Assembly (NCBI GenBank): GCA_028532985.1
Contig: JANCIK010000007.1
Coordinates: 3,410,001-3,474,000, forward strand
Length of the DNA stretch: 64,000 nt
Source: Stropharia rugosoannulata
Taxonomy: Eukaryota > Basidiomycota > Agaricomycetes > Agaricales > Strophariaceae
Direction: 5' to 3'
The position numbers and the translations under genes were made by a program. This document shows, one piece after another, positions 2,610 to 56,339 of this stretch. The notes under the pieces are model-generated. The model saw only the letters and a list, made by a program, of their open reading frames with translations. It had not been told where the DNA came from and made no database searches. The first letter of the stretch is position 1. Every line of letters starts with the position of its first letter.

Positions 2610-5600
2610 ATGGCTACACCTTCCCGGAAAAGAGACGCCACTCACCTCGCTGACTCTGAGCATGTACATGAGCCACCGCCCACGCACCGGCGGACCACAG
2701 GCAATCCAGCTGCTGGGCAAACCTCGAGACATGCACTTCCTGCGGAAGAAATCGCGTCGAATACCTCCTTTCTTGCATTTCCTGATCCAAGGAAGTCACA
2801 GCCCCGCGCTATACCCTTCCAGCAACCTTCTCAACTTATCTCGTTTTCGTATAACGCGTCCCATACTCAAACATTCGCGGACGACACGCTCAAGTACTGC
2901 GTCGACCCTCCGCGCGAAGCTGACTTGAGCTACGGCTATGATCGCTGGGTCAGGAAAGATGACGAACAGGGGAGGCTTGACTCGCTTTTGAAAGCCATTA
3001 TGGAGGTGAAGGCGAGGGGCAAAGATAAAGAAGGTTTTGAGCTACCGCAGATTGGGGTTGTCTCCTGGAGAGGCGTCATGACAAAGTGAGTGTTATCTTG
3101 TTTCATTAGGCATGTCTATTGATTTATTTTCTGTTTTCTCAAACCTCTCCAAAATCGGTTATTACACGAAACACGCGCATATATTCACCTGCTTATACTT
3201 CTGTCGTGTATGCATGCATGCTTGAGCCTTTAGGATTTTGACTTCACCTTACGAGAAGCGTGACGGCTGGCAAATGAACTTAATGTACGTCGATGGAACT
3301 CTCTATTTGGAAGAACACCTTACAGACGCGGACCTTGAAGAAAGGTATGTTCCTTTTTTTTGTTCTTTTGTCGCATATATACGCTGTTTTTCTTCACAAC
3401 TCTTCTCGGAAGACAATGTTTTCATGAGTAATTATTCTTCATATTCCCTCCCTATCGCGCATATATGCGCATTTCGTCGGGTATCTGTCATCGCAATCAC
3501 TGTTTGCCCATGCTTCGCTCTTTATACTTCCTCACCGCGCGTCAATCCAGGTTAAATCTGATTCACCTTTTCAATAGGAACAACGCTCCACCAAACCAGC
3601 GCACACCAATGCATTATGGTTATGCATTCGAATCGTATTGCACTAGCGATTCTCCAACGCGAGAGATTGATTGCAAGTCTAAAGACCCTCCACCAGGCTG
3701 GGGTGGCGACGTGAACACCAACGAACAGCGGCGTAGCGTCGTTCGGACGAAGCTCGGGGATATGAGAATGATTCTCGGCGGCGAGGTCGATTGCGCGCGA
3801 GGTATGTTGCACTTTTAGAATCGCTTCGGTTCGGTTTGGACCCTCCTTTCCCATCTATACCATCGGCATATGGTTTATGGTCCCGCCATTGCCGTATCTA
3901 CTTTCTATACTCCCGTCGCTACGCATTAAAGCTGATGAACTTTTCCCCTCGGTTAAAGAGAAATATACAAGCCAACCGGACACATTCGTAGAACTCAAGA
4001 CGTCGATGGTGATGCGTAGGTTTAACGATGAGGTTAGGTTCGAGAGGTGCGTGTCTATTTTCGTATCTGCTCCCCATTGAATGTACGCGGTGCTTCGCGT
4101 TTCCGGGATTTCTTCAGTTGGAGCGTACTTGGAGCCTGCGTATGCTGGCTGCATGCTTATCGCTCCGCTCCTTCCCTTGAGCTGCTTTTGCTACCTGAAA
4201 TGATGCGTCGCTTCACTGTAGAGAGTATTTCCAATGCTCTGCACCCTCTGTGCGGCCCGAGGTCCACCAATCTTGATCAAACACCCATTGACTTGCTCTA
4301 TAACCTGAATCCTGCTGACGCCATCGCATCCTACACAGGAAGTTGCTAAAGTTCTATTTCCAGTCGCTCCTTCTGGGCGTACCCGTGAGTTGCATTAATA
4401 CTTCACTGATGTGATCCCGCGCCACCCGGCGAGCATGTCTGTAAGGGCGACTCTGCGCAGTGTCGAGCTCACACGAGACCTAGCAGAGGGATTCCGAAGT
4501 TTATTAAGCTGTAAACTATAAATACAATAGAAGCGCACCTAGCAGAGGGATTCCGAAGACAAAAGCCTAAGGAAACCCGCTGCTGGGCGCCACAGTACAT
4601 AATAGAAGCGTTGATTGATGCGTGAGAATAAACTATACAGTTGATCCGCCACAAGAAGCCACCACATCACGTCCTCATGTGATGTGCATCATACATCATA
4701 TGCACAACACATGATGGACGTGTCCCATCAGTACGTCACATGATGTAAACCGCGCGCGCCTGTGCACAGTACACACTGCAGAGCATAGTGTACACTGCAC
4801 GGGCTGCGCGCGGCGTAAGAAATAAAAATAAAATAAAATAAAAGAAAGTGAAGGAAGACGAAATGAATAAAAATAAAGGGTGACGCACAGCGTCCCCTTA
4901 CATCACCCCCCCTTCAAGACACGGCGTCCCGGCGTGGCAAGGTGATCCACTCGCCACCATTGACTGTTCTATACCGTCCAGGCTCAATTGCCAGGGAGCC
5001 AATAACCCGCGGAGCATCAGGATGTTCCCGGTAGAACTTGGCCACCAGCTGAGGTGAGAAGACGTCTTCCGCATGCTCCCAGGAGTTCTCCTCATACCCA
5101 TACCCCTTCCATTTGACGAGGAACTGAAGCCTGTTTCGATGGATGCGGCTGTTGAGGATGGCCTCAACCTCGTACTCCAGCTCGTTATCCACCAGCTCAG
5201 GTTCCGGAGGAGGCGCTGCAATGCGGCCCGGAATAGGGTCAGGAGACAGGGCGTGAGCTTGACAACAGGGAAGACAGGGTGGAGACGCTTGAGAGAAACT
5301 GGGAGTTTGAGACGGTAGGCATGAGATCCAACAGCAGCCTCGACCGTATACGGGCCCAGGAGACGGTGGGACAACTTCTTGGAGGGACGGGAGGTACGGA
5401 TGTCTGACGCATCCAGGTAGACCTTGTCACCTGGTTTGTACACCGGGAGAGGGTCACGTCGCCGGTTGTAGAAGCGAGCCATGTCATCTTTGGCCTTAGC
5501 CAGCGCTGACTTGGCTTCTTCCAATGTACTAGCCATCCGCTCCTTGAACTCATTCACAGTCTCCAGAGACGATGGAGCTTCATGAGGTTCAAAGCCCATC

Positions 5601-8600
5601 CGAGGGTGTCGTCCAGTGTCGAGCATGAAAGGTGTATGCTGGGTGGAGGCGTGGACATGGTTGTTGTACTGGAACTCGGCCAGAGGCAAGAGATCCTCCC
5701 AGTCGTCCTGACGCTCATTCACGAAGGTCCGCAAGTACTGTTCCAACTCCATGTTAACGCGCTCCGTCTGACCATCAGATTGGGGTGGTAGGCAGTGGAC
5801 GTCGCCAGGCGGATTCCCAACAACCGGTAAAGCTCTCTAGTGAACTCGGCAATGAACTGAGGCCCACGATCCGAGAGGACTATCCGAGGGAGACCATGGT
5901 GGCGCCAGACATAACGGAGATAGAGCCGGGCCGCTCCAAGTGCACTAACAGTGGTAGTCGTTGGGATAAAGTGACCGCGCTTGGAGACTGAGTCTATCAC
6001 GTTCATGATGGCGTCATGTCCATTGGAGAGAGGAGTTCCACGATGAAGTCCACACTGATAACCGCCCAGCGCTGCTCAGGGATAGGGAGAGGATGAAGCT
6101 CACCAACCGGGCGGTGACGCTGGATCTTGGTGCGAATACAGAGGTCACAGGTCTTGCAGTACTGTCCAATGTACCGAGACATCTGGGGCCACCAGTAGTT
6201 GCGCGATACTAACTCCAGTGTCTTCCAACGTCCAGCATGACCAGCCACCTTGGTGTCGTGGTGTAAGGAGACAATACGGCGGCGGAGATCAGGGTCGTTG
6301 GGGACGTAGATCTTATCCCGGAAGCTGAGGAGACCATCTTGCATCCTCCACTCCGAGGATCGCACAGAACGGGCCCCACTGCTCAACAAACCCTTTGCTG
6401 CCTTCGCCACCATCTCCTCATGTTTCCCCTGACGGTTTCCCTTCCGGATCTCGTGCAACAAGTCCTTCTCCTCGCCCACCAGCTCCACCGCCTCGAGCGC
6501 CCGGATAGCAAAGAAGGCGGGCTTGAGGAGTGTCATCTCAGCATTATCCCCAGCGCCGTCTCCATGATCAGCTCGTCGCGAGAGGGCATCAGGTTTCCCC
6601 ATGGAACGGCCAGGGCGGTGGCGGAGCGTGAAGTCGAAGCGGGAGAGGTAGAGGGACCAGCGGGCCTGTCTGCGGTTAAGCTTTTTGGCCGTCATGAAGT
6701 ACTCCAGATTCTTGTGGTCTGTCCAGATCTCCACCGGATGAGCTGCACCTTCAAGGAAGTGTCTCCACTCCTCCAGGGCTCGAATGACCGCTAGCATCTC
6801 CTTGTCATGGATCTCGTAGTTACGCTGTACGGGACTGAGGCTCTTGGAGTAATAGGCGACAGGGTGCCATTTCCCATCTTCACGCGACTGCTGAGAGAGC
6901 ACAGCACCAGTAGCAAAGTCCGAGGAGTCTGCCTCAACGCGGTAGGGCAGGTCGTCACGAGGGAAAGCCAGGATGGGAGCCGAAGTCACCGCAGTACGCA
7001 ACATATCAAAGGCGGCCTGAGCATCAGAGGACCACGACCAGGGAGTATCCTTACGCGTCAGCTCAAAAAGCGGACGGGCATGGTGAGAGAAGTCCTCGAT
7101 GAAGCGGCGATAGAAGTTGACGAAGCCCAAGAAGCTCTGTACCTCCTTGCGTGACTTGGGAACCGGCCACTCTGCTACACCTGCAATCTTGACCGGGTCC
7201 ATCTCCACCTGACCTTCCGAGATGATGAGCCCCAGATACTCAATGCGACGCTTCTCAAACTCGCACTTCTCCGGCTTGAGATACAACCGGTGGAGTCGCA
7301 GACGCTCCATGACCAGACATGTCACCCGACGATGTTCCTCGAGGGTCTTGGTGTAGATGAGGATATCGTCAAGGTAGACACAGACAATGCCCTCGAAAAT
7401 GAGGTCGTTGAATATCTCGTTCATCATGGTCTGGAACGTTGCAGGCGAGTTGGTGAGACCAAAGAACATAACCGTAGGCTCGAACAGACCGCGGTTTGTT
7501 CGGAACGCTGCCTTCCACTCATCTCCCTCCTTGATGCGCACATTGTTGTACCCCCACCGCGTCAAGCTTGGTGAAGTAGCTGGCACCACGGAGTTGTTGG
7601 ATGAGGTCAGAGACGAGAGGAAGCGGGTAGCGGTTCTTGATGGTCATGGCGTTCAGCACACGGTAGTCCTGGATGAGGCGCAATGACCCGTCCTTCTTCT
7701 TGATAAAGAAGACAGGAGACGCCATCGGAGACTTAGAGGGACGAATACGGCCAGTGGCGAGGTTCTCCTGTAAGAACGCATCTAGTTCCTTCTGCTCAGG
7801 AAGCGTCATAGGATACACCTTGCAGTTGCTGGGTGTTGCTCCGAGTTCCAGTTCAATGGCGTGATCCCAAGGTCGACATTCTGGCAAGACATCAAAGGAC
7901 TCCTTTGAGAAGACGTCCTTGAAGTCATGCAAATGGTTAGGAACGTCGTCGCGGAAGTCCTTCTGTCCAGAGTTGGACGCAAAGGCTTCTGCGAGCCGCT
8001 GGGACACGGTGGAGGTAGACTGAATGAACTGGGACTCGGGGGGTAACGACGCCGCAAACAGCCGGTTGTCGTCGTCCTCCCAGACAGAGTGGAGGGCCTC
8101 TAGTAAGCTGCAAGCGTCCTTAGGAGCAGGCAGCGGTTCAACTTCCTCCAACTCCATCTCGGGACTTCGTCGTCATCGTCCTCCAGCTCCATAAGGAGGG
8201 GCATAGGGCCCTGGGTACAGGTCTCTACCGCTCTGATCTCTGCGCGAAGCTTAGACTTCTCCGCACGGATCTCATCACGGCACGTGGAGCACCGGCGTGG
8301 GCACCGTGACATCTTCACCTCTCCAGTGATCCAGTCCACTTCAGGGTTGTGTTCTCGAAGCCAAGTGTGGCCCAGAATCATATCCTGACGTCCGAGGTTG
8401 GTGACGGGGAAGACGGCGCGTTCAGTGTGGTCCTTGTAGCGAAGGATGAGCTCCACAATGGACGTGATAGAGCCGTCTTCATTGAGTGAACCGTCAACGT
8501 TGTGGACTGGAATGGGGACCAAGAGAGGGCGTTCCGTCAGCTTGTGCTGCTGGACGTACTTGCGACTGATGAAGCACTGGTCAGCGCCGCAGTCAACCAG

Positions 8601-11288
8601 GGGCCTGAGGCGAAAACGCTGGCCCGTGTCCGTGGTCTCGATCTCCACTGGAAGGTGAAGGGAGTTGGGACTCGGAGTAGCGGCAATGGTGTAATGAGAG
8701 GGAAGTGCGCGCTCCCAGCGGCGAGCACGGGCCTGGATGCGTAACGCAGCAATGGAGTGAGACTTGGGAGCAGGGGATTTAGGCGTGTCAGGCAGTCGTG
8801 AAGGTAGGTCTGGAACAGAAATAGATTCGCAGGGCTCTACCGACAGTACACTATAACGACTGCCACGCGCGAACGAGGGCACGCCGCTCACTCGTCGCGA
8901 TGCACAAAATCCTCCTCCTCCTGGACATCATCCTCCTTCCTTTCATCCACCGGCGGAATAGCATCCTCCTGGCCCTCCGCAGCGCGCATGTGCTCGAGTT
9001 GCTCCTGAAGCTCCGTGAGAGTCATGTGGCGAATGTCGAAAGCCCGGGGACAATCTCGAGAGATGTGACCAGGTTTACCACAGCGATAGCAGGTAGGGGG
9101 TGTCTTCCCAGCACTACGAGCACGATCAATGTCCATGGGAGCGCCCAGAGGAAGAGCAGGGGCAGCAGGCGCGCGAGGGGCAGGAATAATGGGCAGAGAA
9201 GCACGTGGAACGGTTGCAGGGAGGCGGATGAACGCGAAGCCGCGGGGGGACCAGAAGGCGTAGGGTGTGCTGCACGGAAGAGCTGGTTGGTCTCGCGGTT
9301 GCGAGCAACCTCCACGGCGCGTTCATACCATCCCTGAAGCGAGGCGGGTCGACTCTCCGAGGGCAGGTTGGCGACTCGACTGTCCAGCGAAGGGGATAGA
9401 CCACGACGGAACTTCATAATCAACGCCTTCTCGTCAATGTACCCAGACTTGAGGACAAGGTCCTTGAAGGCGTCGACGTATTCTTCAGCAGAGCGGCGGC
9501 CTTGATGGTAGGAGGTGCTCTCGAGGGCGAGCTGAGCGTGCTCGGCCTCGTGCTGCTCGCAAAAATCGCGAATGAACACGGCTTCAAAGGCGTCCCAGCT
9601 ACGCAGATTGAAGTCGGAAAATCCAGACATCATGGCGCGTTTCGAGAACTGGGCGGCGCGGCCTCGTTCATGAAAGAAAGGGCCCAAAGAACTCGAGAGA
9701 ATTCGTCAGGAAACTGCGAGCCAGCCAGGGCGAAATAAATGGTGCAAGAATTAAGAAAAGAGCGCCCTTTTTCGCGTGAACCATCAAATGGTTTGGGAGA
9801 CGCAGGTTTGAGGCGAGAGACAGTGGGAACTGCAGCTGCAGGAGCCGTGTGGGCGTCGAGATGAGGAGGGGATCACGAGGCGCAGGAGGGGCGGGTGCAG
9901 GTGCAGAATGCGAGCTGGCAAGTGTAGTCTCGAGGAGGGTGCGGATAGTGTGAAGGGAGCTCGAAACGTCGGCCAATTCCTTCCGAAAAATCGCGTTATT
10001 GTGGTCGACGTACTCCAGAAGCGACGTGAGGGTGAGGGCGGGTCTGGACAAGGTATTTCCCGCCTCAGGGCTCGCAGAGGCGTCTGTATCCATCGACATC
10101 GAAGCAGGGAGGGTGTTGGAGTCCTAGGCCGTTTCCGAAGGCAGTAGGCGTCCAAAACTGGTCCCAGGCAGAGGCTTTTGTACTGTAAGGGCGACTCTGC
10201 GCAGTGTCGAGCTCACACGAGACCTAGCAGAGGGATTCCGAAGTTTATTAAGCTGTAAACTATAAATACAATAGAAGCGCACCTAGCAGAGGGATTCCGA
10301 AGACAAAAGCCTAAGGAAACCCGCTGCTGGGCGCCACAGTACATAATAGAAGCGTTGATTGATGCGTGAGAATAAACTATACAGTTGATCCGCCACAAGA
10401 AGCCACCACATCACGTCCTCATGTGATGTGCATCATACATCATATGCACAACACATGATGGACGTGTCCCATCAGTACGTCACATGATGTAAACCGCGCG
10501 CGCCTGTGCACAGTACACACTGCAGAGCATAGTGTACACTGCACGGGCTGCGCGCGGCGTAAGAAATAAAAATAAAATAAAATAAAAGAAAGTGAAGGAA
10601 GACGAAATGAATAAAAATAAAGGGTGACGCACAGCGTCCCCTTACAATGTCGGACATTGTCTGGTTAATTCAGGACATTGCTCGCATTCATGTGTGCGCT
10701 CGCTGTCCCAATACCCCTTTCTGCCCTTGAAGCCTTCCTTATGCTTACTCCCGTCTATAGGAAATTGTTGTCGGGTTCCGTACGCCAGCTGGCATGCTAA
10801 GTACCGCACAGGCGCTCAAGACGATTGAGCTGCCATGTCTCGTACGTGGAAAATCCCATGGCTGGCAGCCATTAGTTTGCCTGGATTGGGGTTACCACCT
10901 TTTGTCGTTTCTGAAGAATGTGGTGACGCAGGCTCAGCAAGGACCAGCTGCCAAAGCTACTGCCAGTGATGTCGGGCCGCAAGCATGGCGCGTCAAGTTC
11001 ATACCTGGGTCAGGTGTTCATGTGGCGGAGCTTGACCCGCGGGTGTCCAGGATGTCGAGAATGGGGAAGATCGCGTCGGGTTCCTGCCCCGGTGGGACTG
11101 GGACCATATTAATAGCGAGGCGAACGCGAAGCCTGTGGAACGGCTGCGTCACGACGCGCCGCAAACCGCGAGTAGTACTACACAAGGCGCCGCATGGAAT
11201 ATATAGACAGTGCCACGCCATCGGTGGCGCGTTATTCAGTGGGCGGGAGGCTGATACAGACGATGCAAGCCTTGCAGCTGACGACTAA
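2610..11288 (+). CDS. RAI1/DXO-family decapping nuclease, interrupted in an intron by a retroelement
   Basis: Family proteins remove defective 5' caps (NAD, GpppN, pyrophosphate) in the nucleus, and Rai1 also partners the exonuclease Rat1. Six exons splice in frame: 2610-3085, 3234-3344, 3578-3801, 3959-4046, 4339-4384 and 10761 onward. Conserved blocks appear in order: [14 protein letters not shown], the [10 protein letters not shown] block, the catalytic GEVDC (about 3780-3794), [22 protein letters not shown] and, after the long intron, [11 protein letters not shown] and LVRGKSHGW. All active-site acidic and Lys motifs of the family are present. The last intron (4385-10760) holds a 6.2-kb antisense LTR element; without it the intron would be about 164 nt. 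At about 11037-11041 the frame slips: the +2 frame continues with [16 protein letters not shown], which resembles the usual C-terminus, and stops at 11206. The gene is either a recent frameshift mutant or carries a sequence error. Confidence 0.8.
4440..4902 (-). repeat. 3' LTR of the chromovirus
   Basis: The 463-bp repeat appears identical to the copy at 10184-10646. It contains a direct repeat of CCTAGCAGAGGGATTCCGAA (about 4480 and 4536), a TATA-like TATAAATAC stretch and strong dyad symmetry. The dyads are a run of CATCACATGATG-type inverted motifs (about 4665-4745) and a GC-rich hairpin whose arms are CGCGCGC and GCGCGCG (about 4751-4814). Confidence 0.93.
4903..4915 (-). other. Polypurine tract of the chromovirus
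   Basis: On the minus strand the sequence GAAGGGGGGGTGA lies immediately upstream of the 3' LTR. That is where plus-strand DNA synthesis primes in LTR retrotransposons. Confidence 0.6.
4914..8891 (-). pseudogene. Chromovirus pol (PR-RT-RH-IN-chromodomain), frame-broken
   Basis: The segments read leftward. Protease with [10 protein letters not shown] (DCG in place of the usual DSG/DTG) lies in 8891-8100. RT begins in 8157-7519 ([16 protein letters not shown]) and continues in 7589-6003 with the YLDD active site, RNase H (TDHKNLEYF) and the integrase HHCC finger (CKTCDLC). The integrase core follows in 6006-5719 (SDRGPQF) and 5752-4898. The chromodomain ([20 protein letters not shown]) is in 5192-4914. 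Adjacent pieces sit in different frames. The slips map near short runs, for example the CCCC before AATCTGATGG at about 5785 and the GGGGG at about 7550. Each slip is repairable by one base, so the copy is either young and error-bearing in the assembly, or mobilised in trans. A protease/RT frameshift could be natural, but the slips inside RT and IN could not. Confidence 0.88.
8888..10099 (-). pseudogene. Chromovirus gag with CCHC zinc knuckle, frame-broken
   Basis: The N-terminal part (10099-9780) is a Ser/Pro/Ala-rich segment with a predicted helical stretch. The capsid-like retrotransposon-gag region (about 9780-9300; [40 protein letters not shown]) follows in another frame. The nucleocapsid (9136-8888) carries [14 protein letters not shown], a CX2CX4HX4C knuckle, and an acidic tail. 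At least two single-base slips (about 9700-9780 and about 9220) separate the parts. The gag stop overlaps the start of the protease frame at 8891, the usual gag-pol arrangement. Confidence 0.82.
10184..10646 (-). repeat. 5' LTR of the chromovirus
   Basis: This is the partner of the LTR at 4440-4902, with the same length and ends (TG...CA) and no mismatch seen on reading both. Transcription of the element would start here and run leftward, antisense to the host RAI1/DXO gene. Confidence 0.93.
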
Positions 11289-12031: not shown

Positions 12032-14153
12032 ATGAGTGGCCCATCTGAAAGCACCATCAGCAATGACTCATTGGACCAGGCAAGCGCTGGCTCTTGTTTA
12101 ATAGCAAATACTAAACAGAGGAATGCAGGTCACTTTGGGCCAGCCAGATGTCATTGCCTGCGACTGCAATTTGTCTAATCTTCTTTCAGCCTATCTGGAA
12201 ATGCCTGATGAGAAACTAGACCTGGAATCTAATGAGTGGGACTACCCAGATTTATCTGCTTTTGCCATCTCTCACTTGGAGGAATCTTTTACTGGCAATC
12301 ATTCTGCTTTAATTACTGAATCTGGCACTCCTGATTCCTTCACTACTGATTCCGCACCCACCCCATCTGAAACAAACTCTGAGGCCTTTACTGCGCAGGG
12401 AGATAAAAGGAAGAAATCGAAAGGAGCAAAGAAGAGATCCAATAAGCGTTCTAAAACTACAAAAAAGCCTAATGGAGAATTAGCTTATGGCGATGGGGAG
12501 TCTTGGAAGTAAGCCTTATTATTATTACTCTAGCCTAATTAGTGACTATATATATACCAGGAAGATCAGACTTGAATCCATTGCAGGGCCTCCGCCAGCT
12601 GCATTGGATAAAGGCCCAGTCAATTTGTTGGGAACTGAGTCCGACTCTAGGGATAACAATAGGAAGAAGAAGAAAGGCAGAAGAAGCGTGAAGTCAAATA
12701 AAAAAGGGAAAAAAAGCGGTGGGGTTTTTGTCAAACTAGCTGAAGGAAATAAGCCTCTCGCTGATCATCTAAGGCTACGCAACAAGCTGTTACAAAAAAG
12801 CGAGATCTACCAGTCATCTAGCTATTCTCTTTTATTAAAGAGCACTCCGGTTAGCACTGGGTGGTATGGCAAAAATCCTACGCCAGAGCAGCGCACTGTC
12901 ATTCAAAAAATGGTAGAGGATGGATCGGTTAAAAGCACCATAGCCAAGTTTTTCCCTGTGTATGCCTCTAATTTGTAAGGCTATTGGTTTATTTATTTCG
13001 AAAATGATTTTGACTGATTATATCGCAGAATGAAGCCAGCTCTCTTGGTTGATAATGACAATCTAGTCATTTTATACAGATCCAGTGTTATGGCCTGGAT
13101 TCAACCTGCAGAAGAACTGGAGTTCTCCCAAGCTATTGATCTTTTACTTAAGTCTACTCTTGATTCACCCAAGGTTCGGAAAGAATGGCAAGATAACGAC
13201 AGAGGCAAACATTTTCCCTGTATCATAGGCCATCATAGGCAATATCAAAAGGCATGGATCTCTGATTATTCAATTAAATTATTACTGAGAGCTACTCCAG
13301 AAGCCCTTTCTCACATTATGGCATAGAAAAAATGAAGACGCTGTTGAAGTCTTTATAAATACATCAGTTATCAAAAAAATTACGTTAGTTCTTAATTATT
13401 TAACATTATTGCTTTTTAATAAACCCCGTGTCTAGAAAACAGGTTTCTTCCCTTGTTAAACTTATGTTTCCAGGGGTTGCAGATAGACTGCTTAAATCCG
13501 CTGCCTGGCATAAGTCCAATAATGAATCTATCACTCCAATATTTGATTTGTTCTGGAATTTGTGCATAAATGGGATATTTTCTGGGGATAAAAGAATTCA
13601 CTGCTTACCCCACACAGATTTCAAGAATATTATAGGAGTGTGTGTGCTGGTTGTTTATCAGCTCTCTGGTAGGTTATTTAATTGATTTAAATAAATAAAA
13701 AGTGCTTATATAAATACATAGGTTACAAATTTAATCACTCAAAGCGCACTTGGCTTGTGCTCTGGGAGGCTGGAGTTGTTATTGAGCTGCCAGTATGGAC
13801 AATGATTGCATATCCATCTGCTCTTTTGTTTCACTTTAATATTGATATTCATGGTAAGTTAGTATTAAGCACTCTCTGAATTTATCTAATGTTGAAGAAG
13901 ACTTCAAGTTTGTGACAACTGAGGGGGATGAAAGGCCTACCCCTGAAAATTCGAAGCCTATTGAAGATGGAGATGAAGAAGGCAGAGGAAGCCTGGTTTA
14001 TTTTAACCAGGCTACTATGTACACTTGTTCCGAAACTGATAGCTTCAGCATGGATGAAGCTAAAGATAAAGGGCATTCAGGCACTACCAATTTTCAAGAA
14101 AACATTCAAGAAGCCTTCATGAACTTTGAAAAAATTTCTTTACTAAAGCATTA
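12032..14153 (+). CDS. Mushroom-specific family protein with HxD...H (dioxygenase-like) motif
   Basis: About seven exons: a short MSGPSESTISNDSLDQ exon (12032-12079) joined by a putative GC-AG intron (12080-12128) to an exon with a Lys/Arg-rich nuclear-localisation-like stretch (about 12405-12470). Further exons at 12566-12975, 13029 onward, 13435-13671, 13722-13852 and 13900-14153 follow. The C-terminal half contains CLPHTDFKN, VYQLSG, RTWLVLWEAGVVIELP and YPSALLFHFNIDIH. I recall many Agaricomycete hypothetical proteins with this order (HxD, WLVxWEAG, YPSxLxFHFN). The HxD (13611-13619) and later His (13832) could be the metal site of a double-stranded beta-helix 2OG-Fe(II)-type fold; that is inference. 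The frame slips once at about 13310: the good frame continues LWHRKNEDAVEVFINTSV. The gene is mildly damaged or carries one sequencing indel. Its AT-rich composition contrasts with what follows. Confidence 0.55.
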
Positions 14154-19609: not shown

Positions 19610-22600
19610 ATGTTCTCGCAACGCCCGAGCACGTACGCTGCAGCACGCAAGACCCGTTCCGCACAGCTGAAGGCTTCACTCGAAGAAGAGAATCAGCGCA
19701 CAAAGAATGCCTCCGGAACAAAGAACACAGTTTCGGGGAACGTCCCCATGACTACCACGGCAAAGGAGCAATTGAACAAGAATGCTGAGATCAAGGAAGA
19801 ATCTCAGTTGAAACCAACTAAGGACGAACAGAAGGCCGACATACCTGAAGAAAACAGCAGGACAGCTGCAAGCGAGACCCAAGAGGACCAGGGATCGCAA
19901 TGGACCCAGTACGCACAACGTGTACCAGAATTTGAAGCAAGTATTGAGCCGCCGCCACCGGAACAGCAAATGACGGCACTACCTTGACTCCGTCGATCTC
20001 ATAGCCGAGATAGCACGGATCGACAAGAATTACTACCACCCATAGAAATTCGACCACAAACACCTCGACGACACACTATGGACGACTCATCAGTAGAAAT
20101 CCCGAGGACGGGAATACAGTTGAATGTGGTAATGGAAGAATTACTGCAGCAAGCGGAAGAGCGCTTGACAGACGCACAGCGCGCACACCTTCGACAACGT
20201 CAACTTAATACCAGCATGAATAACAAGAACCTTGAGGACAGCTCCTCAGAAGAATCTGAGGGGGAAGGACCGTCTCGCAATAAAGGTAAAGGAACAGATC
20301 CCCGTAACTGGGGCAATATACATTTCACAGAAGACGAAGACGACCCTCAAGTGCAAGAACAAATATTACAGAGCTACGCTAGCAATAAGGTAATGACTAA
20401 TCCGCCTCCACAGGTTTCACACCACCCTAGACCAGACACGGCTGAACCCACGCGCGATCCGACTCCTCGATACCCTGACAATCGTCCAATTAATCAGATT
20501 GCTAAAGATAGCTATCTGGGGAAGATGCTTGCAAATATGGAGCGCCTGCGAACATCTCGCAACCCAGACAGTGAACCGTCAAGCTCGGACTCGGATGATT
20601 CAGATAGCAGAGGACCTGGACGACGCTCGCGTGGACCTCGAGTCCCGAGGCAAGCTAAGTCCGGATCAGGCAAAAGGAAGGGATATAAGAGATCAACCTT
20701 GAAACCTAGTATTCCACCTAAAGAGTATGATGGAACGCCGGACTCACGCCAGTACAATAGGTTTGTAATTGAAGGCACTACTTATGTAACGGATGGGAGA
20801 GTACCAAAATCTCGTCAAGCATTTGTATTATCCTTCTACATGACTGGCACGGCATATGACTTTTATACACAGAAAGTATCATCCAACTTACACCAGTGGA
20901 CCCTGGGTGAATTCTTTACGGAACTATTCAACTTTTGTTTCCCAATTAATTTCAGAATGGAGCAACGGAAACGGTTGAAGCACTGCTTCCAAGATAACCG
21001 CTCTGCATCCGCTTATGTACATGAACTTGAAGAACTATTTAATTTAATAGGTATGGTAGGTGAACGAGAACAAGTAATCAAGTTATGGGATGGGCTTCGC
21101 ACATCCATTCAACAAAGCTTATGGCGCGACCACTATAACCCTGAAATCTCTACCTGGGATGAAGTGGTTAGCCAAGCTGAAACAATTGAAATAGCTGAAA
21201 ACATTACCAGTTCGCGTATTACACGCGCGTCAAGATCAGAACAACTTAACCGACAATTACAACCACTGTTGCGCTCATCCGAACCCAGGTCACAACCCTC
21301 ACGGGGTTACATACCTTTTAGGAACCAGGCACGACACTTCACACCAAAACGACGCTTTGATCACCGCGGAAACCCGTATAAGTCCCCAACACTGAATTTG
21401 GGAACTCGACTGACGCCGCCTGTCAGAACACGGCTTGGCAGGGGATCCACACCACAATCTCCACCAACACGTATGTCGACTGAGGAACGCTCAAAGCTTC
21501 TCGCTTCAGGCAAGTGCTTCCACTGCAAAGAAGAAGGGCATATGGCACGCAACTGTCCGAAACGGAGTATAGTGCGTTCCACCAGCTCTAGGCCACCTGG
21601 AATACCTACATTCAATATTGAAGTGGAAGGCGAAGATTATGAAGACGACTTCGTGATTATACAAGAAGAGGACGTACCAGTAGGCATGATGTCAATTGAA
21701 CCGGACGACGAAGTATGGGATCTCATTCATGATAATCCCTACCAGCAATGGCAACACAAATACGATCCACGGGCACCAAGACAACAAGCACTGGGTGATG
21801 CAATTGCATTAGGCGCCCAGAATGCACTTGAAATGGAAGTACCATATCCGGGAGATGCTCCTTTCCCTGTAGTACATGCACCATACAAAGGGCGACGTTT
21901 TCATGTAATCTATAGTCCATACCACGAAGACACATATTACATATTTGACTTGGACTATTTAAGATATGAACGAGTACCTGGAGAGATTATGAGACACCGT
22001 ACATTTAGGATAGGTGACTGGTACTCAGACGTATGTCAACATTGGATGGGAACATCAGATAAGCTGCGGGGACACACAATTACCATGGGAGATGCATATG
22101 GATACAATGCCACACTTGCTCTGCGCAGTGGAATCAAGGAACTCTACCCAACTAGACTAGAAACAGTCAATGATGAGACCCGCTTCCGTCTGATTTCTTC
22201 CGGACACATGTGATGGGCTATTGTTGACAAAGATTATAATAAGCCACTCAACATCTCTATACACGAACTCGCTAACCCGGACTTCGACATTTGTACATGG
22301 TACCAAAATAAACGAGAGGTACCATCCACCCGCGGCACCAATCACACCCCATCCTACCGACAAATTCACTCATTAATTGATGACACCTGTTTTGAGTTAT
22401 CTGGATCAGCATCGACCCAGCTTGATCTGGAAGACAAGACCGATTCCGACATGCCTGGATTAGAGCCTATAACAGATGACGAATCAGAATTTAGTTACTC
22501 AGATGTACCTAGTCTAGAGTCTGTAAGTGAAAGTGAGGGCGAAGATGATGTACGAGCTCCAGACTTAACCCAACATGTACTATCCGAAGTAACAAATCTC

Positions 22601-23116
22601 ATGTGTTATTCTGTACAAGTCAATGGGCACATACATGATGAAGACATTCCGGACAGCCCCAATGGGCACATTCATGGCTAAGACACACCACACAGCCCTG
22701 ACGGATCCAATACTTCGCAACCGCCAACATCTCGGACAGAAGAATCATTCATGATCCGGGTACTGCCACCAGCAATCATGACAGACCCCGAGCTGACAAC
22801 ACCAAGTGAATATGAACCCACATGGGTAGACATGCTGGAACTACCGTTCCCGGAGCAACATGACTTCCCAACTAGGGAAGCATACCAGTGGCACCTGGGA
22901 GCAGAAGGACGAGTCTTAAGACCCGAAACAGTTATTGGGGATATACTTGCTCCGCTGCTAATTAAGATTCTTGAGACCGGAGGACGATACACAGGTGATC
23001 ACCCGCAGTGGACTAACGAGGGACGGTTTACAATTGAGGCATACACGCCTCAAGGACATTTAATTAAAGATAGGCGCCGGCACATCACGACCTTCTTTGA
23101 TAGCAAACATATATGA
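19610..23116 (+). pseudogene. Ty3/gypsy-like gag with CCHC knuckle, three in-frame stops, no pol
   Basis: One reading frame runs from ATG 19610 to TGA 23114-23116. It is broken only by TGA 19985, TGA 22211 and TAA 22679. The central 711-codon segment (20078-22213) has an acidic/Ser-rich N-terminus and a retrotransposon-gag domain (GTAYDFYTQKVSSNLHQWTL, MEQRKRLKHCFQDNRSASAY). It also has a basic linker and CFHCKEEGHMARNC at about 21515-21560 (CX2CX4HX4C). Beyond the knuckle about 500 more residues follow, rich in Asp, Tyr and His, that do not look like protease or reverse transcriptase. No RT, RNase H or integrase is present, and at about 23117 the sequence changes to a helicase remnant. It is a truncated element, or a gag-derived gene that has decayed. 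Confidence 0.65.
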
Positions 23117-23129
23117 CATATCCGGGCTT

Positions 23130-24024
23130 TCAACCTGCCTTAGAATATGCTGGCGCACCCGCGACATCAAATGAGTCTTTACTGGCTGCATTCGCAAGTT
23201 GACGACTCACATCTGGAGAAATTTGACCGCCTGTGAAGCATAAACTTGCTGTCTTCCAATCCGAGAAATTCCAATATTGACTGTGTGGGATATCCAGCAT
23301 GTAAAGTAGCCTTGGTTGCAAATAGAACAATGGAACAGACAAATCGCTTCCGCAAGAAGCCAACATGTAGGAATTCTGTTCGGAAGGATAACCCCAGCTG
23401 TTGAGTAAGTGTACTTCATCGATACAGATCGCAAATAATCGGGATGCAAATATTTTGCTATTGACCAAGTATTGAAATCCTGGAGTGGTGATCATATTAG
23501 GGGATACCAGGATGACATCTGTGTCAGCTTCTACTTCTTTCCATATTTTGATATCTTGCTTGACCGCGTTTTCCTTTGCTACGCTATTTATACCAAGTGC
23601 CGTGAGTCCAAGTCTACGGAGCTTTATTCCTAATTAATAATAGAGATATCATTACTTGATACTGCCAGAATATGCTGTCTGTATTTACCTGGTCCTGCTC
23701 GAGAGCAGTGGTTGGAGATATAACAATTATTGCTGCATTGTTGGGATATTTTGCTAATGGGCACAGCAAGGGTTTATTTTGGATAGATTTGATGATGTGT
23801 AATGATATGCATGTATAGGCTGTCTTCCCTGATCCCGTTGCAGAAACTGCGAGAGCATCTCGACCGTCTAAGATTGATGCCACTCCTGTCAATTGATAAT
23901 CATGTGGGCAAAAAGGAAGAGCCTCAATGCGAATTTGATGGCAAAGTAATATTCCTTCCAGTGATGAGGATCTGTAGGGCCCGTTTGGAGAGCTATTGGA
24001 CATAATTCGAGCAAATACAGACAT
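23130..24024 (-). pseudogene. RecQ-like SF2 helicase, N-terminal half, decayed
   Basis: From about 24024 leftward: HDYQLTGVASILDGRDALAV, Walker A ATGSGKTAYTC, VISPTTALEQDQ, an intron (about 23690-23636), VILVSPNMITTPGF and the Walker B/DEVH box CIDEVHLLNSWG. These are motifs Q, I, Ia and II of RecQ-type DNA helicases. The expected next motif (TATLR) is broken: the right sequence reappears in another frame as PTQSILEFLGLEDSKFMLHR. The C-terminal helicase half (motifs IV-VI) is missing and the copy ends at the gag junction. Mushroom genomes contain many such helicases related to subtelomeric TLH proteins. The gene lies head-to-head with the OrsD-like gene at 25883, with a URC1 fragment between. 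Confidence 0.65.
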
Positions 24025-24128
24025 AGAAACGCGTATCTATGAGGAGACAAAGATATCTAATTAACGACGCGTCAAGGGCCGTGGGAGTAAACGTGAAGTT
24101 CACATGATGTAAAAGTTTACGATGGTAA

Positions 24129-25530
24129 AGGCATGGATCTATTCCCAATAACTCTTTCAACAACTAAAGCAGTGGGCCATCCAGCTCAATGTCATTGCCG
24201 ACAAGGAGAGCCCACTCAAGCCAGCAGCCAAGACAATCACCTACTCACAGAACTCGTCCCAGACCCAGGTTGTGGATAGTCCATGGACATCGCCTACAAG
24301 TTCGCCTGCCACAGTGGGCACAACAGCAGCACCTTCCCAAGGTTTTGCTGCTACACTCTCAAGCTTGTCAGTGCCCTCTGGACCTAGCAAGCTCCTCAGC
24401 AATAGGGAGCGGGAGGAATTGCTCTATCCTGGACAGGTGAATCCAACCAGTACGTCCAGACCTTATTGTTCACTCCCTGCTGACCCTGCGTTGCAGCCTA
24501 CCCCGACCAACGCGGTATCACGCCAATCCCACTTGCTTGGGGGCGCCCTCGGCCGCGGAGTGAGGGCCTGTCATCTGCTCATGCCTCCGGAGCGCGATTA
24601 AGCACAGGAACACGATAGGCGCCCACTCAGGCTTGTACTCCACCTACCGCACGCTCTCCATTGCCATGGGCTCCCTGAACCCTTCCCACCGCCCTGACTA
24701 CTTGAAGACTGAGCCGCCCGTTGACAATCCCTTCATCCTCACCTCGGCGGACAAGCCCAAGATTGTCAGCCTCGACCCGTAGGGCCACCTTGTGCCGCAG
24801 GCCCGCAAATATTCAAGGACAAGAACAATAAGTGCATTTCAGCTTGGAAACTCAGCTTCAGTATGCGCTGTTCGAGGATATGGAGGGACATATCCAGAAC
24901 TTATCACTCGTCCAGACATCAAGGTGTTCCTGCCACCGATTGGTCGCCTTACTGTTTATATCTGTAAGCACCTCTTTAAAGATCAATACCGTTGCTGAGC
25001 TCATATATTTTGTGTCAGTCGGAAACCCTGCTTTCAAGCGCAACGAGACTAAAGAGCTGACACTGCGGGTTCATGTTGAATGTAAGCATGTTTATCACCC
25101 CATTTTACTACCTTTGCTGACCTGCATATCAGGTAATGGCCATTGGCTCAGGCGTCTTCACCCCTGATATATGTACTTGCAAGGCATACCTGACCTATGC
25201 AATCGAGGAGTGCATTCGTGGAGCCCAGAACGATTGTGGCGGCACTTCAGTAAGGAAGGGCGCGCGCTGGGAGAGGTAATAAAGTAAGTTTGTCACATTT
25301 TCTCTATTACTTATCACTGACTTTACCTTCTCAGATATCTAGTGTACAACCTAGGCAAGCGTAGCTGAGACATCGCCTACAAATGCTTCACGTCCACAGA
25401 GCTCATCCAGGGGGTGAAGTACATGCGCTTCCAGGGCTCATGCCAGATGTGCTGCACTGGCTCGGCATCACCAAGGTTGACAACATGGTCAGCATGGTCA
25501 GCATGAAGTGCTACGACACAATTGTGGCCT
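24129..25530 (+). pseudogene. URC1 (GTP-cyclohydrolase-II-like) copy A, decayed
   Basis: Aligns along most of its length with 54534-56190. Shared blocks are SQTQVVDSPWTSPTSSPA, LSNREREELLYPGQVN, SIAMGSLNPSHRPDYLKTEP, YPELITRPDIKVFLPPIG and VLHWLGITKVDNMVSM. The family (Urc1p/urg1, uracil catabolism) carries a RibA-type GTP cyclohydrolase II fold. Copy A lacks the start exon and the whole block between VFKDE and GVGEQFG (an internal deletion of about 280 bp near 24825). It has an in-frame TAG (24780) and several indels. It retains the intron positions of the other copy, so it arose by DNA duplication rather than retroposition. Confidence 0.75.
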
Positions 25531-25882
25531 CCATCAATCATTTGGTTTGGGTCCCGTTTCTGTACAAATACCCTCCATGCTCGATGTTTCTTTGATACTA
25601 TTGGTTATCCTTGTGGCTGTCCTTCAGATGTTCCATTCTTCCGACTGTCTCTGACCTACTGTATTTATTGATACTGCATTAATATTCTTGCTTGTCGTAT
25701 GTAGGTCAATAATATACACAGTGAGAACAAGGGGATGTATGTTTCCCCCTGCCCACATGGATGACAAATATGACAGGGTCCACAAAGGTGCTGCGGCTGT
25801 CAAACAAATATTTGCCGCTATTTTCCCACTCTTTAATCCAATCTTTATATTCTGAGAGGCTGGAGCTGACGCATATTGCAAA

Positions 25883-28800
25883 ATGGATCAAGGCATTTCT
25901 TCGCATTCTCTAAGTAGTAAGCTTCTTAGCTTGAGTCTATATTGCATTAACCATTTGTGTCAGGCAGGAAGAGGCGTCTGGATGACTCAGAGGACAATAA
26001 CCCACTGAACACCCTGGCTGGAGTAACCTCTCGCTCTCGCGCTAAGAAAAGACAAGTTTTTCTTGGTGTTTTTCCACCCCCACATCTGAATGCAGCGCCT
26101 ATCCTCAATTCCTCGCTTCAACCACCTGGAGGCTCAGTGACCTGGGAGGCTGAGATTGTTCCTCGCATGCTTCGCCCTCGCTTGAAGAAATCCCAGGAAT
26201 TGCTAGCAGTATGCAGCGACGAAGAAGGGTCTGGTGACTCGGACTACCATGAGATGGAGAGAGCAGAGAACAGAGTCGAAACCGACAGTGGAGAAGAAGA
26301 CACTATGCAAGAAGAACTTCAAGCAGAAACTAGGCAGCCTCAATTCCCCTCCAGTTCAAAGTCAAAATCTACATCTATGGTCTCCAACCGCAAACGAGTA
26401 TCAGTCGTTGTATCCCGCCCATTATACGACCCCGCTACCTTGGTGAAGCCTCTGGAAGACAATATTTTCCATTTTCTTACTGTGTTCTCCTGTGATTGCT
26501 TGCTGCCTAACCATACGTCGACTCCAACAAAACTATGCAAAGTACTGCAGCTATACCGCTTTTACTACCATGATGGTCTCAATTTAATCATCTGCCCTAG
26601 CCACCAGCGGGCTGTTCTCCTTGAAGACTGGACATCGCATGTGAAGCAGTCACATAAAATGGACCACCCTGGCAAAATGTCCAAGAAAGAGCTTACGAAT
26701 ATGCAGGCTCATGTCAGTAACAGCTTTGGTGCAATTGAAACGCACACCGAATTTCTAATGGCAGTAAAACCATCTTCCCTTCCAAGACCACTCTTCATGC
26801 ATGACTACTTCCAACATCCTCGACCATCCATTGCGCAAAGGTACCCATGTCCTGAAGAGAACTGTGGAACGTGGTCGATTGTTGGAAGTCCAGGACTCAA
26901 TAACAACTTCCATAAACATGTCACCCGCATTCATAAAAGACATCTACGAGACTACCCCCCTGAGTCTGTCGCTTCAAAGCCAATATGGACACAGTCTTTA
27001 ATGGTCAACTCACAAGGTGCTGCATATCTTACATTTGCGCTGCCCGATACTTTTTCCATCGAGGATGTTGTTTCAGTCCATGACCCGGTCGGACTTCTCA
27101 CCCCAGCTTTAAGATGCCCTGATCAACAAGATATTACAAATGCGCCTCAGGAAGACCTTCCTCAGGATGACTCTGCTCAGGAGATCCCCCCTGAGGAAGT
27201 TCACTGGCTGTCTAACATTGGATGGCCACAATATCGGAAGTCATTATCCGTCCAGGACTACAACACTCTGAGGTCAGTAGTGGCGATTCCAGGCACAGAG
27301 AAGACCAGACTGAAGGGAAGGAGCAAAAAGTGGTTGGAACTCGGGTTGTTGCGGATACATGAAATGTGTAGAACTTACTTATCCGATGCCTACCAGCGTA
27401 TAAAGTACCTCAATCCTGCAATAAGAGAGGCAGTAACCAAGGGGTATGTGCTTTGTTAGTGTCCAAACATTTCTGACATGATCACAAATCTCTCTTGCAC
27501 AGGTCATCGCGAGGAAGCTTCAAGGAGCTCACGTCTTCAACTTATCGGAAGTATGGCTCTGTTCTCAGCCAAATAGTCGCAATGACATTGAGGATTATTG
27601 ATGAATTGGCTCAGAACCCTGGAAACATTGGAGTACCATCCCTCCAGTGCACGAAAACACAGCTGACAGCAGCTCTTTCCCTATATACTACTATTCTACA
27701 GGCAAAAGGAGACCCTCTACCTGATGTGCTTCTTAATCAGTTGCATTTGTTCCTTGAAACCGTCTTACGACCAGGCCAACTATCAGAACGCACAATTGCT
27801 TGTCTCACTGACCAAGCCCTCTTCATGTTGAGCATCAGGGACAATGATGCTTATGCCACTGCTGCCGCGATTGTATTGACTTGCTCAGCCCTTCAGTACT
27901 CTTTTCGCAGCATCCAAGTCCAAGTAGTGATGCATACCCATGATCATGGTCAAATTTTTACTTGGTTCCAACCACCCCTGGCACCCCATGAGCGAATGCA
28001 GTCTATGGAGGTGGTGGAAGCCTGTTCTGACTTTGATGAGACAGAGAATGAGACAGAGGATGAGACAGAGGATGATGAGCCAGGGCTAGATAAGGTGGAC
28101 TTAGAAATCCAACAAGAACTTGAAAGCAATGAAGATGAAGAAAACCTGGAAGCTGAATTAGACAAGATTATGGGTGCCGCATACTCATGTGAGCATCTCC
28201 CACTTGGTATATTGGTCACCTTACTCATTTTTCCACTGGATAAAAAGACCAAAATCTGCATACCCACAGTGAGCGCTCTGAGGTGGTTGATAATCATGAT
28301 CATACTCCTCAGCAAACACTTCTTAGGTAAGTTTCTTACTTTAATAGCTTGCTGCTGCTCCAGTGCAACTCTTAAATGCAAACAAATTCTTTAGTCTTTT
28401 CGATGAGCAGATGACCTGGCTGAACCCTGACCCTGGTTTTGGAAAAACAACGCCATTCTCGAGAATGTACTGCATCTGGAAAAATGTTCACAAATATGCA
28501 GTTAACCAAACAGGGTCTATGCAGTTTATCCCTAATGATGATGGTCATAGGTGGATGTTCGGAAGACACGGGTCTCGGGCTGCTACACTCGATATGCGCA
28601 CCTGGTCCAGCACATCTGAAACTGCCATTGCCATGTTTCAAGCTGCTACTGCCAAACTTACTTCAAGTTCCAGATTGATTGACAGTTTTCATATTAACGA
28701 CAACAAAACCCGCATTGCTCCTCATAGGCAGGATTCGAATGCAGCCCAGATAGAAGATCTGCAAACAAGACTTTCCAATGAGATTCATGAAAAGATCTTG

Positions 28801-30146
28801 ACAGTCAATCAGCATTTTGACTCAGAAAAGGCCAAAAAATGGCTCAAGGAAGAACAGAAAGCTTTACAGGTTCTGGCTTGTCTGTTTTGCCTGACTACTG
28901 GGATAACATTCCGCTCATGGCAGTTTGCTTCCATTCTTTACGACACCACAGAGAACCAAAGCAGAAATGTCTGGATCCTCAAGGATGGAACGGTCATTGT
29001 TTCTCATCCGAAAGCAAAACAGAGATTCATAAACAGGGCGCCAATATTCCTAGCATTCCCGCTCAAAATCTCTCATCTTGTTGCCTTCTATCTCTACATA
29101 ATCCGCCCTGTTGCATGTGACCTATTGCGGAAACTTCAACTCAATGTCTCTACCTATTCAAGTGTTCTTTGGGCACATTCTATCCCAATGGGTAACGAGA
29201 ATCCTCGAATAGGTTTGCCATGGGCTGGCCACTACATCTCCACCCTTTTGAGGAATTTCACGGAAAAGAAGATGGGAATAGCTATGAGCCCTCTCCTTAT
29301 TAGACAGGCAAGTCAGGCAGTCTTTCGAGACAAGCTCCCTGAGTTGTTCTATAAAGAGCCCAATCTTGCAGCTCTTGATCTTCTTGGACAGCAAAGGTTT
29401 GGATTTCCATCCTGGCAAGACATACCAATTGAACTCAGTTGGAGGCTTCTGGCTGTTGGGCAAATGTGGCAGGCTTTGCTAGGGATTACTCTGATCGACA
29501 CTCTATTAATGCCAATGATACAAGGCTCACATGTGTTTTTCTCTGAAGGGCAGGAAAACTGGGACATAGCAATCTTGGGCGCACTCAAGCGTGGATATCC
29601 TGCTAATGAAGATGTCCTGCCATTGAAGTTAGAGAACGTGAGTAGCTGCTCAACTGCTATCAATATGCGTATTCTCATGTCTGAAAATCTTAATAGCTCC
29701 TTGAAAGTGATCTTCGCTACAAATATCTTGTGCCCATACTGGGCGAGTTGCTTTTTGGGAATAACTCCAAGAGGTTAGATGAAACACCTCCAATATGTGG
29801 ACTCCATGTTGAGGTGGTTGCTAGAGGCATTCAAATTGTGTGTTCATTGTTCTTCAATTTGGAACTACACTAACTGAAAGAACAGCTAGCGACTATCAAT
29901 AATTCCTCTATTGTCCCTCCCTTTGAAAGGCAATTAGCAGCGGATTTCAAGCTGGAACACTCATCCGGTATATATAAAGCTGCATACGCGGATCTGCTAA
30001 ATTACAAAGACAAATTCCCCACTACATGGAATACTCTAGGCCTGGAGGTCTACAGTTCCCACCAGGTGGTACCACTTATGCCAACTACTTCAAAGGAGGT
30101 AGAGGATTCCATCAATTCAATTATTCAATGCCTCGAAGTTGCCTGA
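25883..30146 (+). CDS. OrsD-like zinc-finger protein with possible recombinase-like C-terminus
   Basis: Seven exons join in frame to 1,307 codons: 25883-25916, 25964-27443, 27503-28188, 28248-28326, 28395-29637, 29697-29837 and 29886-30146 (introns of 47, 59, 59, 68, 59 and 48 nt). The basic N-terminus (SRKRRLDD) suggests nuclear location. An OrsD/DUF3505-type finger follows (CPSHQRAVLLEDWTSHVKQS, with C222, H225, H237 and H242). A C2H2 finger has C307-x4-C312-x17-H330-x4-H335. An acidic stretch spans about 650-740. The C-terminal region has TTGITFRSWQFASILY (R933), SHPKAKQR (K966), LLIRQASQAVFRDK (R1063) and DLLGQQR. This spacing loosely recalls the R-K-R-(H) series of tyrosine recombinases, but no catalytic Tyr is assignable, so the idea is weak. 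No frameshift or stop is seen, unlike in the neighbours, so it may be expressed. It lies divergent from the RecQ-like helicase remnant. Confidence 0.7.
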
Positions 30147-30309
30147 TTAGGTTGGGTGGAGATAATTCTGGTACCTAATATGAAAATGGAGAACCTCAAT
30201 ATAGCTATGTAGACGTTTAGTTATAGCTATGTAGACATTCAGTGTTATAGCTATGTAGATGGATGTATAGTTATAGCAAATTCTTAACTGAGTCAGTATT
30301 GACATAAAT

Positions 30310-32840
30310 ATGCTGTAGGAACAGCTCCCAGATAAAATGCACATACCCGAAGGGGAAGAGTGGCGCGATACCGCGCGCTTGATAGTGCTTGTAACCCATG
30401 AAGAGATCTTCACAATAGCTTTGCAAGCATAAGAACTATGAACTGGTACATGAATTGGAGCTACGCAACTCACTTTATGCAACCATGTTCACTTCGATCA
30501 TTCAGATATGCGGGAATGTCCTGGACTTTCTCAGGAAGCGTTAGGGGGAGTCAACCAATAGGATTTACCAGCCGGAATACCAAGTTTGGAGCAAGCCAGC
30601 GATATCATTCACCTATGGCATAGATACTGCAGAGCCCTACCACGCCGGAAAGCAAATACGTGAGTAGATGGATGGAGTAGATTGCGAGATCACTGACCGC
30701 TTGAATGCAGACAGTTGTGTTGGGATTGGCCTCGGCCAATTTGGTTATCAACTCGTCCTGGCGGCCAGGAAGTTGCAGTGACGGGCGGTCAAAACCCTCG
30801 CTTTCCCACTCTGGAGTTAATCCACCAACAAAGATAACAGCATCGACGCTTTGCGCTAAAGATGCAGCCTCTTCGATGGCGCTGTCAGCGTCTATCTTTT
30901 CGTATCCTCCGAGACGCTGTCAGATACTTCATTAGGGATCAAACTCGATGGTCAATGTCTACATTGTCACTTACAACTCCTCTTATTAGCGCTGGCTGTG
31001 ATAGCCTACTGTCAGCTTTGTCGTCATTGCTGTCTGGTGGGGGGGGGATGCTGGCTTCTAAATGCACGGCCTTCTTCTCCTCTATGGTCCCTTGTCTGTT
31101 TGAATTGATTCATCTTCTGTGAGCATTGAATCATGGCAATTATACTCACCCTTAAAAGAAGTCTCCAGGTGTTTGCTTGGTCCAATTATTGATGAGCAAT
31201 TTGCCGTCAAGCCAAAGTTTGGCCCGTCCTATAGATGGGTTGCGTTACGCACTGGGGATGAATACATGAAGGGGCCAACAAACCTGCAGCCGTTAAACCC
31301 AATTCAAATACCCCAGTTGTTGGTACTGTAAGCTTTCCTTCCAGTTTTATTGACCAAGTGTCGGTAAGGCCATCGGGCAGGAAATCATTCAACTTGACCC
31401 TGGTATCGTTCAATACATAATCTTGAACTGGACTGCCCAGTTCTCCCTTTTCGTCATGAGAATAGAAGGTGCAGCGCCATCCCGGCTCCCCGGCTGGAGT
31501 CTGCAGATGATTTTCCAGAGTAGGAAGGTATTTGTGAGCTGTTATTACATATCGCACCGCGGCATGAGCAGCGAATAGTCTTTCATATTAATGGGACCTT
31601 ACCGTAACAGCCGACATGATAGCGAAGCGTCGAGCCTGCCGGAATGTGATCTGCAATACCTTGCCATGGAGTAACAACATATGTTGCCTTCAGCGCTGCG
31701 GATCCCCCGCCAGATATAATATAACTCGCTCCTTGGCATTTGGATCAATAACGGTGATGTTCAGTGGTTTGCTATTAGCTAGTGGAAGAACATTGTTCCT
31801 GTTTTTCAATAGCACAATAGTCTCCGAAGCGGCAAGTGCATGGCAGAATTCCTGCCCTTCTGGAAAATCACGGGGGCCCTCAATGCTATCTCCGAAACCA
31901 ACCTGGGGATTCTTGCGCGCCTGCTGTTGCAAGAAAGTCAGAATATTGGCAACGCGTTCATCTATGGTCGATGATAATAGTTCTTGTGCCAATAAACAGT
32001 GCAAAATGAGCACAGGGTTTCTCTAGCTTGACGGGCCGCGCATCTCAAGGTCGAGTCTAGCATTAATCGCCCTGTCGATGCTGTACGTTCTAAACCTGGG
32101 CAATATTAGCTCGGACTGCATCCGACGAAACAAATAGATTTGTACCAGTCGCTGATAATAATCCCTTTGAATTTCCACTAGCCACGCAGGATATTGGTCA
32201 AAAGCTCTTTATTTTCAGAACAGTGGACGCCTTTAATTCTCCCATATTTGATCGAAAGCGAACCCATGAGTTACTGTATCCCAAACTGTAAAATAGAGGC
32301 GACCTACGAGGTCATGTATGCCCCAGGTTGCGCTATTTTTGTGCCGACATGAAACTGTTAGGGATAGTAGGAAAAACAGTACAGGCAATGCTCACGGATA
32401 CAAATATATTTCTCGGAGTGCTCTGTTGGACACGATCGATTCTGCCGCTGTGTGCTCGGGCTCCTGGTCATTGGCGACGAAGTGCTTGATGGCTTGCATG
32501 AGAATTAAATTAGACGCTGTTCTTAGTCATAGGTCTCGAGCATGAACTGGCAGATACTCCTTCAATTAACATAGGCACCAGCCATAGTGCCTGACATGAG
32601 ATTATCTGAGTATGTGCATGGCGACAGAGGGGGCACGCATACCAAACAAATGGGGGTCCTCTGAGAATGACTCGAAGGCTCTCCCACCCAGGGGCATGCC
32701 TTGAATATTGCATGTCGGGGCCAGCAGAATGACAGACGACTTGGCCTTTGTTTCCTTGGCCAGGAACTTGACGCTGACCTCCTGGATAAGCTCTTGTATT
32801 CACTGCTTTGTTCACTCACCTTTACCCAGTCCCAGCCGTA
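30310..32840 (-). pseudogene. GH3 beta-glucosidase with PA14 domain, decayed
   Basis: Extensive pieces read leftward: LAPTCNIQGMPLGGRAFESF (about 32715), [20 protein letters not shown] (about 32490), TYSIDRAINARLDLEMRGP (about 32070, around the nucleophile region), LAASETIVLLKNRNNVLPLA (about 31800), a PA14-like block (about 31550-31230), LPGRQDELITKLAEANPNT (about 30745), NPIGWLPLTLPEKVQDIPAY (about 30530) and YKHYQARGIAPLFPFGY (about 30370). That is the full domain order of fungal GH3 enzymes (TIM barrel, alpha/beta sandwich with inserted PA14, FnIII start). Multiple frame changes and stops separate the blocks, and the first about 70 residues are missing. The enzyme would have cleaved cello-oligosaccharides. 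Confidence 0.8.
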
Positions 32841-56330: not shown

Positions 56331-56339
56331 TAGGGAGAG

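Follow-up and report, generated by a model that had tools for sequence, protein, structure and literature searches.

The stretch of DNA considered here, referred to as the window, comprises 64,000 nucleotides of Stropharia rugosoannulata (bases 3410001-3474000 of contig C7, which is 3,543,007 bases long, in a genome of 48 Mb and 20 contigs). It contains a finger gene, W, the product of which is probably, at a likelihood of about 55%, a member of an Agaricales family of DNA-binding proteins with fingers and a recombinase-fold domain, and not a component of a mobile unit. The proposed layout of these probably DNA-binding proteins would be an OrsD-type finger, a C2H2-type finger, and then a domain with the fold of the tyrosine recombinases and type IB topoisomerases. 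Three paralogues, A, B, and C, are present in the same genome, and the family is divided into type 1 (W, A, and six database relatives) and type 2 (B and C).

Gene W is encoded on the plus strand by exons at 25883-25916, 25964-27443, 27503-28206, 28364-29637, 29697-29837, and 29886-30146 of the window. The splice sites were picked to keep one frame open and to match the relatives, and the resulting model is open over 1,297 codons from ATG to TGA, with five introns, all of them GT-AG; the intron at 28207-28363 is the least certain, at 157 nt vs. 47-59 nt for the others. The initial annotation had reported an intact finger protein of 1,307 amino acids, of which the open gene is upheld and the length is revised. 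The protein aligns with P0001 of Amanita muscaria (1,288 amino acids), P0002 of Laccaria bicolor (1,301), P0005 of Infundibulicybe gibba (1,166), and P0006 of Gymnopilus junonius (1,098, partial), all from Agaricales, and 189 columns are invariant across these five long proteins. Shorter members, P0003 (61% identical) and P0004, complete the six relatives, which were recovered by three database searches (one, then three, then two new members, from 6,757, 7,993, and 4,401 scored candidates). Since these searches are based on shared words, more distant members may have been overlooked. Among viral contigs, 35 pattern matches included no relatives. Directly behind the gene, at 30200-30267, a 22-base unit occurs three times in tandem.

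The domain with the predicted fold covers residues 767-1154 of W (28444-29607, plus strand). A first model, with a predicted local distance difference test score (pLDDT) of 42, was uninformative, and the model of the domain reached a pLDDT of 63.6 and a predicted template modelling score of 0.73. In the structural comparison, all of the top 35 rows, which represent some ten distinct proteins, belong to the tyrosine recombinase/topoisomerase IB superfamily, and it is by this catalytic-domain fold, as supported by one predicted model, that the domain can be assigned to the superfamily. The register of the second catalytic arginine (Arg II) fits four of the matched proteins, and the order of the R, K, R, and W motifs follows the fitting order of helices and strands. 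When viral structures were compared with the domain, nothing fell below E 0.001, and the best 11 rows included two named integrase and one DNA_BRE_C. The suggestion that the C-terminal region might resemble tyrosine recombinases in a structure prediction is supported by this model.

The sequence profiles lend the recombinase assignment no support. The hhalign comparison of ten family domains with six recombinases scored 14.2, vs. 14.0 for the reversed control, and when 67 Xer proteins were added (67 of 80 loci, with L048-L059 and L087 excluded beforehand), nothing rose above shuffled columns. A search of PDB sequences with the family profile returned no matches at E 10. Membership at the level of sequence was rejected, given that the profile scores stand at control level, and of the earlier proposal of a degenerate tyrosine recombinase in the C-terminal R-K-R series, the fold and the register of the second arginine survive, but not a sequence profile. 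The C-terminal domain could alternatively have a separate helical fold, with a DNA-binding or structural role and an accidental likeness to recombinases; this is considered unlikely, given the single superfamily among the top rows, the arginine register, and the order of the four motifs.

The candidate active-site residues of the domain are R923 (Arg I; 28912-28914), K958 (the catalytic lysine; 29017-29019), R1053 (Arg II; 29302-29304), and W1108 (the His/Trp position; 29467-29469). All four are present in each of the eight type 1 proteins, and W1108 is the same in all ten proteins when type 2 is included. The set R-K-HxxR-H/W-Y of an active tyrosine recombinase is nevertheless incomplete: in all eight type 1 proteins, the position three residues ahead of R1053 is occupied by L, M, P, or S and not by His or Lys, and the family alignment has no conserved tyrosine in the 40 residues after W1108, and none near the position of Cre Y324. 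The invariant tyrosines lie further downstream, at Y1241 (133 residues after W1108) and at Y1267 of an EVYxxH motif (159 residues after W1108; 30051-30053), and both are kept in the five long proteins and are visible in copy A; P0003 and P0004 stop before these motifs. The Cre reference letters were confirmed at positions 173, 201, 292, 315, and 324, which are assumed here to be catalytic positions, as is R312 of XerH. The pairing of W1108 with Cre W315, which was extrapolated three to four residues past the ends of three Cre rows (1pvq, 2hof, and 1kbu), was not used, because the rows that run further (3c28, 1crx, and 1f44) imply Cre 311-312. The catalytic residue numbers of human Top1 were taken from PMC8306514, and PMC9919579 gives Arg223 of the poxvirus enzyme only as a pocket residue.

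The domain would most likely bind and hold DNA without recombining it, in the manner of the domesticated Ndc10/Cbf2 and Gcr1, because R, K, R, and W are kept but the His and Tyr are absent at their usual places. It is rather improbable that W is instead the recombinase of a Crypton- or Starship-like element that still moves DNA, using a non-canonical site to which a distinct C-terminal part, joined by a linker, may contribute its tyrosine, Y1267 or Y1241. Eukaryotic topoisomerase I has its tyrosine in just such a position, and the retention of the four type 1 residues, the two downstream tyrosines, and the small number of database relatives found would all agree with an active enzyme. Against this stand the substitutions before Arg II, the lack of a nearby tyrosine, and the age of the copies (35% protein identity between W and A, and 45% between B and C in their best segment), together with the absence, in this one genome, of shared flanks or convincing boundary repeats that could represent Crypton or Starship ends. 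Pfam scans of the window exon frames and of P0001-P0006 recovered neither GCR1_C at E 1, which accompanies the tyrosine recombinase in CryptonF, nor PF11917 (DUF3435), the mark of the Starship captains. Genome searches for DUF3435 and OrsD were silent, which shows no absence, because the controls were equally silent.

Both fingers precede the predicted domain. The OrsD-type finger spans residues 222-242 (26593-26655, plus strand), with C222, H225, and H237 invariant, and the second spans residues 307-335 (26848-26934, plus strand), with C307, C312, H330, and H335 invariant in the five long proteins; its C2H2 type was assigned from this residue pattern, in the absence of a Pfam match. The Pfam OrsD model (PF12013) matches the W exon at 15.9 bits (E 0.019), under its cut-off of 26.6 bits, and the equivalent regions score 18.9 bits (E 0.0021) in P0001 and 18.4 bits (E 0.0031) in P0005, with a poor match in P0006 (E 0.47) and none at E 1 in P0002. 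The family consequently falls short of OrsD membership by its scores of less than 26.6 bits, and the OrsD-like finger of the initial annotation is retained as a pattern with a match weaker than was claimed. Both finger patterns are kept in copies B and C.

Two exon queries of the genome each returned the same four loci, that is, W, copy C (C7:3389503-3393391, minus strand), copy A (C14:164988 onward, plus strand), and copy B (C14:177472-181080, minus strand). These form two clusters, in both of which a type 1 gene is paired with a type 2 gene on the opposite strand, the two genes being approximately 42 kb apart on C7 and 8 kb apart on C14. The type 2 proteins are 24-27% identical to type 1, and of the 79 domain columns that are invariant in type 1, 39 are kept by both B and C, and 29 are changed in both. 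The latter include R923 (L and Q) and K958 (A in both), with R1053 changed only in C. With the C-terminal parts of four relatives as the query, neither B nor C yielded the region from Y1241 to Y1267 at E 0.01. Type 2 would have retained both fingers and a large share of the domain while losing R and K, and may either partner or counteract type 1.

Over 695 bases that comprise the promoter and the 5' part of the coding sequence (25672-26366, plus strand), W is 88% identical in DNA to C (C7:3393021-3393688, minus strand), and further on, the proteins are approximately 25% identical. Because W resembles P0001 over this part, copy C probably acquired its promoter and 5' part from W. The copies have no other flanking DNA in common. 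A more elaborate arrangement is very doubtful, namely a two-part mushroom system in which each cluster pairs an R-K-R-W protein, working through Y1267 or Y1241, with a catalytically dead sister that bears the same fingers and restrains it, and that in one cluster has acquired the promoter and N-terminal part of its active partner. A repeated element with no Pfam match lies approximately 5 kb from copy C, at C7:3398828-3400792, and its reading frames look, presumably, PIF1- or Helitron-like; its relatives occupy 25 places in the genome, one of them approximately 27 kb from copy B. Part of a low-copy gene at 13437-13673 of the window, also with no Pfam match, has four copies, including one at C14:143196 and two on C5. 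Neither this gene, which occurs near both clusters, nor the element near C marks a common unit.

The family can be set beside several known systems. Domesticated recombinases are already known (PMC3212892). The domesticated Crypton-type proteins (Ndc10/Cbf2, Gcr1, and animal DUF3504) differ from the W family, which bears OrsD- and C2H2-type fingers and has no Pfam match to GCR1_C or DUF3504, a comparison drawn from Pfam and a PDB profile search (no match). Cre, Xer, and the phage integrases have no profile similarity to the family, which lacks the His of HxxR and the canonical Tyr, and the type IB topoisomerases differ in the Lys/His before Arg II, which the family does not have, with its Tyr assigned only as a candidate. 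No description of OrsD and C2H2 fingers joined to a recombinase fold, or of type 1/type 2 pairs, was found in print in a search that did not extend to subscription papers. If the fold is true, W would represent an unannotated Agaricales family, the main domain of which has no Pfam name, and would add to the instances of recombinase domestication known from Ndc10 and Gcr1. The family would also provide a lead on the role of the OrsD finger, which may be to direct domains of this kind to DNA, and the pairs of type 1 and type 2 genes lend themselves to genetic testing.

The initial annotation was right on the unusual gene, and its guess at the fold is supported by the model. The mobile unit that it proposed, in which a helicase and a recombinase-like gene together mobilise captured host genes, can be cleared away for this locus, and the chance that it is correct is close to negligible. 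The gene order was described correctly: the helicase sequence (minus strand) points away from the other two pieces, the URC1-like piece (plus strand) lying between it and the divergent finger gene. Helicases also occur jointly with OrsD/DUF3505 in subtelomeric elements of Colletotrichum (PMC5576322) and in Ustilago (PMC10532341). The telomere-linked RecQ helicases of this kind, such as UTASa and UTASb of Ustilago, resemble W in the OrsD-type finger and the location in the outer chromosome arm, but W has no fused or intact helicase, lies more than 100 kb from the telomere, and was found in four copies. The unit was rejected for this genome on the grounds of a broken helicase that matches only itself, a decayed URC1 piece, and the lack of shared flanks or convincing boundary repeats.

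The helicase fragment (23182-24024, minus strand) retains approximately 260 codons of the first helicase domain, with a DEAD match of E 5e-9 in Pfam, and probably contains an intron; its frame shifts near 23400, just after the DEVH box. The pieces on either side of the frameshift match successive parts of the RecQ model at E 0.006 and 0.085, and the RecQ-like gene of the earlier reading is reduced to a truncated, weakly RecQ-type sequence, judged to be outside any unit. The seven longer minus-strand frames of 22160-23491 contain no Pfam helicase domain (eight frames scanned, no Pfam matches), and a genome search with the two main pieces returned only these pieces. A scan for Walker A and DExH motifs over C14:140001-215454 and C7:3370001-3474000 revealed no other convincing superfamily 2 helicase by motif, including around the three other finger genes. 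Approximately 109 kb separate the fragment from the C7 end that bears the telomere array, and an intact RecQ core at a chromosome end, as in the telomere-linked helicases, is lacking. Gag-like zinc-knuckle frames at 20078-23113 reach almost to the helicase break at 23182, with zf-CCHC in 20078-22210 and no Pfam match in 22682-23113.

The URC1/GTP cyclohydrolase-like pseudogene (24124-25527, plus strand; GTP_CH_N, E 9e-22 in Pfam) is 80-82% identical in DNA to C11:3028025-3029699 and to 54520-56185 of the window, and has lost approximately 280 bases by internal deletion and acquired stops. The C11 copy, 8-10 kb from the contig end, has the Pfam domain within an open frame of 194 codons, which refers to the domain frame and not to the whole gene. 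The piece was judged to be a decayed copy, with a better-preserved one on C11 and another in the window, and not the captured cargo that had been suggested. This second copy in the window, at 53612-56440, is 90.7% identical to C11:3027136-3030008, approximately 8-11 kb from the C11 end. The helicase fragment and the URC1 piece both look like unrelated debris of a rearranged chromosome-arm region.

No convincing pair of repeats was found around the locus in a search that gapped repeats can escape, and the nearest are a 39-base family at 22621-22698, the third copy of which (30483-30521) is only 62% alike. To the right of W lie GH3-like exons (30608-32022, minus strand). Arrays of TTTAGGG/CCCTAAA are present at the right end of C7 and the left end of C14, with none at the right end of C14, and have the seven-base unit TTTAGGG and not TTAGGG. 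Gene W is approximately 103-107 kb from the right end of C7, and all four finger genes lie approximately 103-181 kb from telomere-bearing ends, a distance that also speaks against the mobile unit. A repeated element at 4439-4902 and 7543-10646 of the window shares 98% identity with C14:212335-215434, at the right end of C14, where the contig stops.
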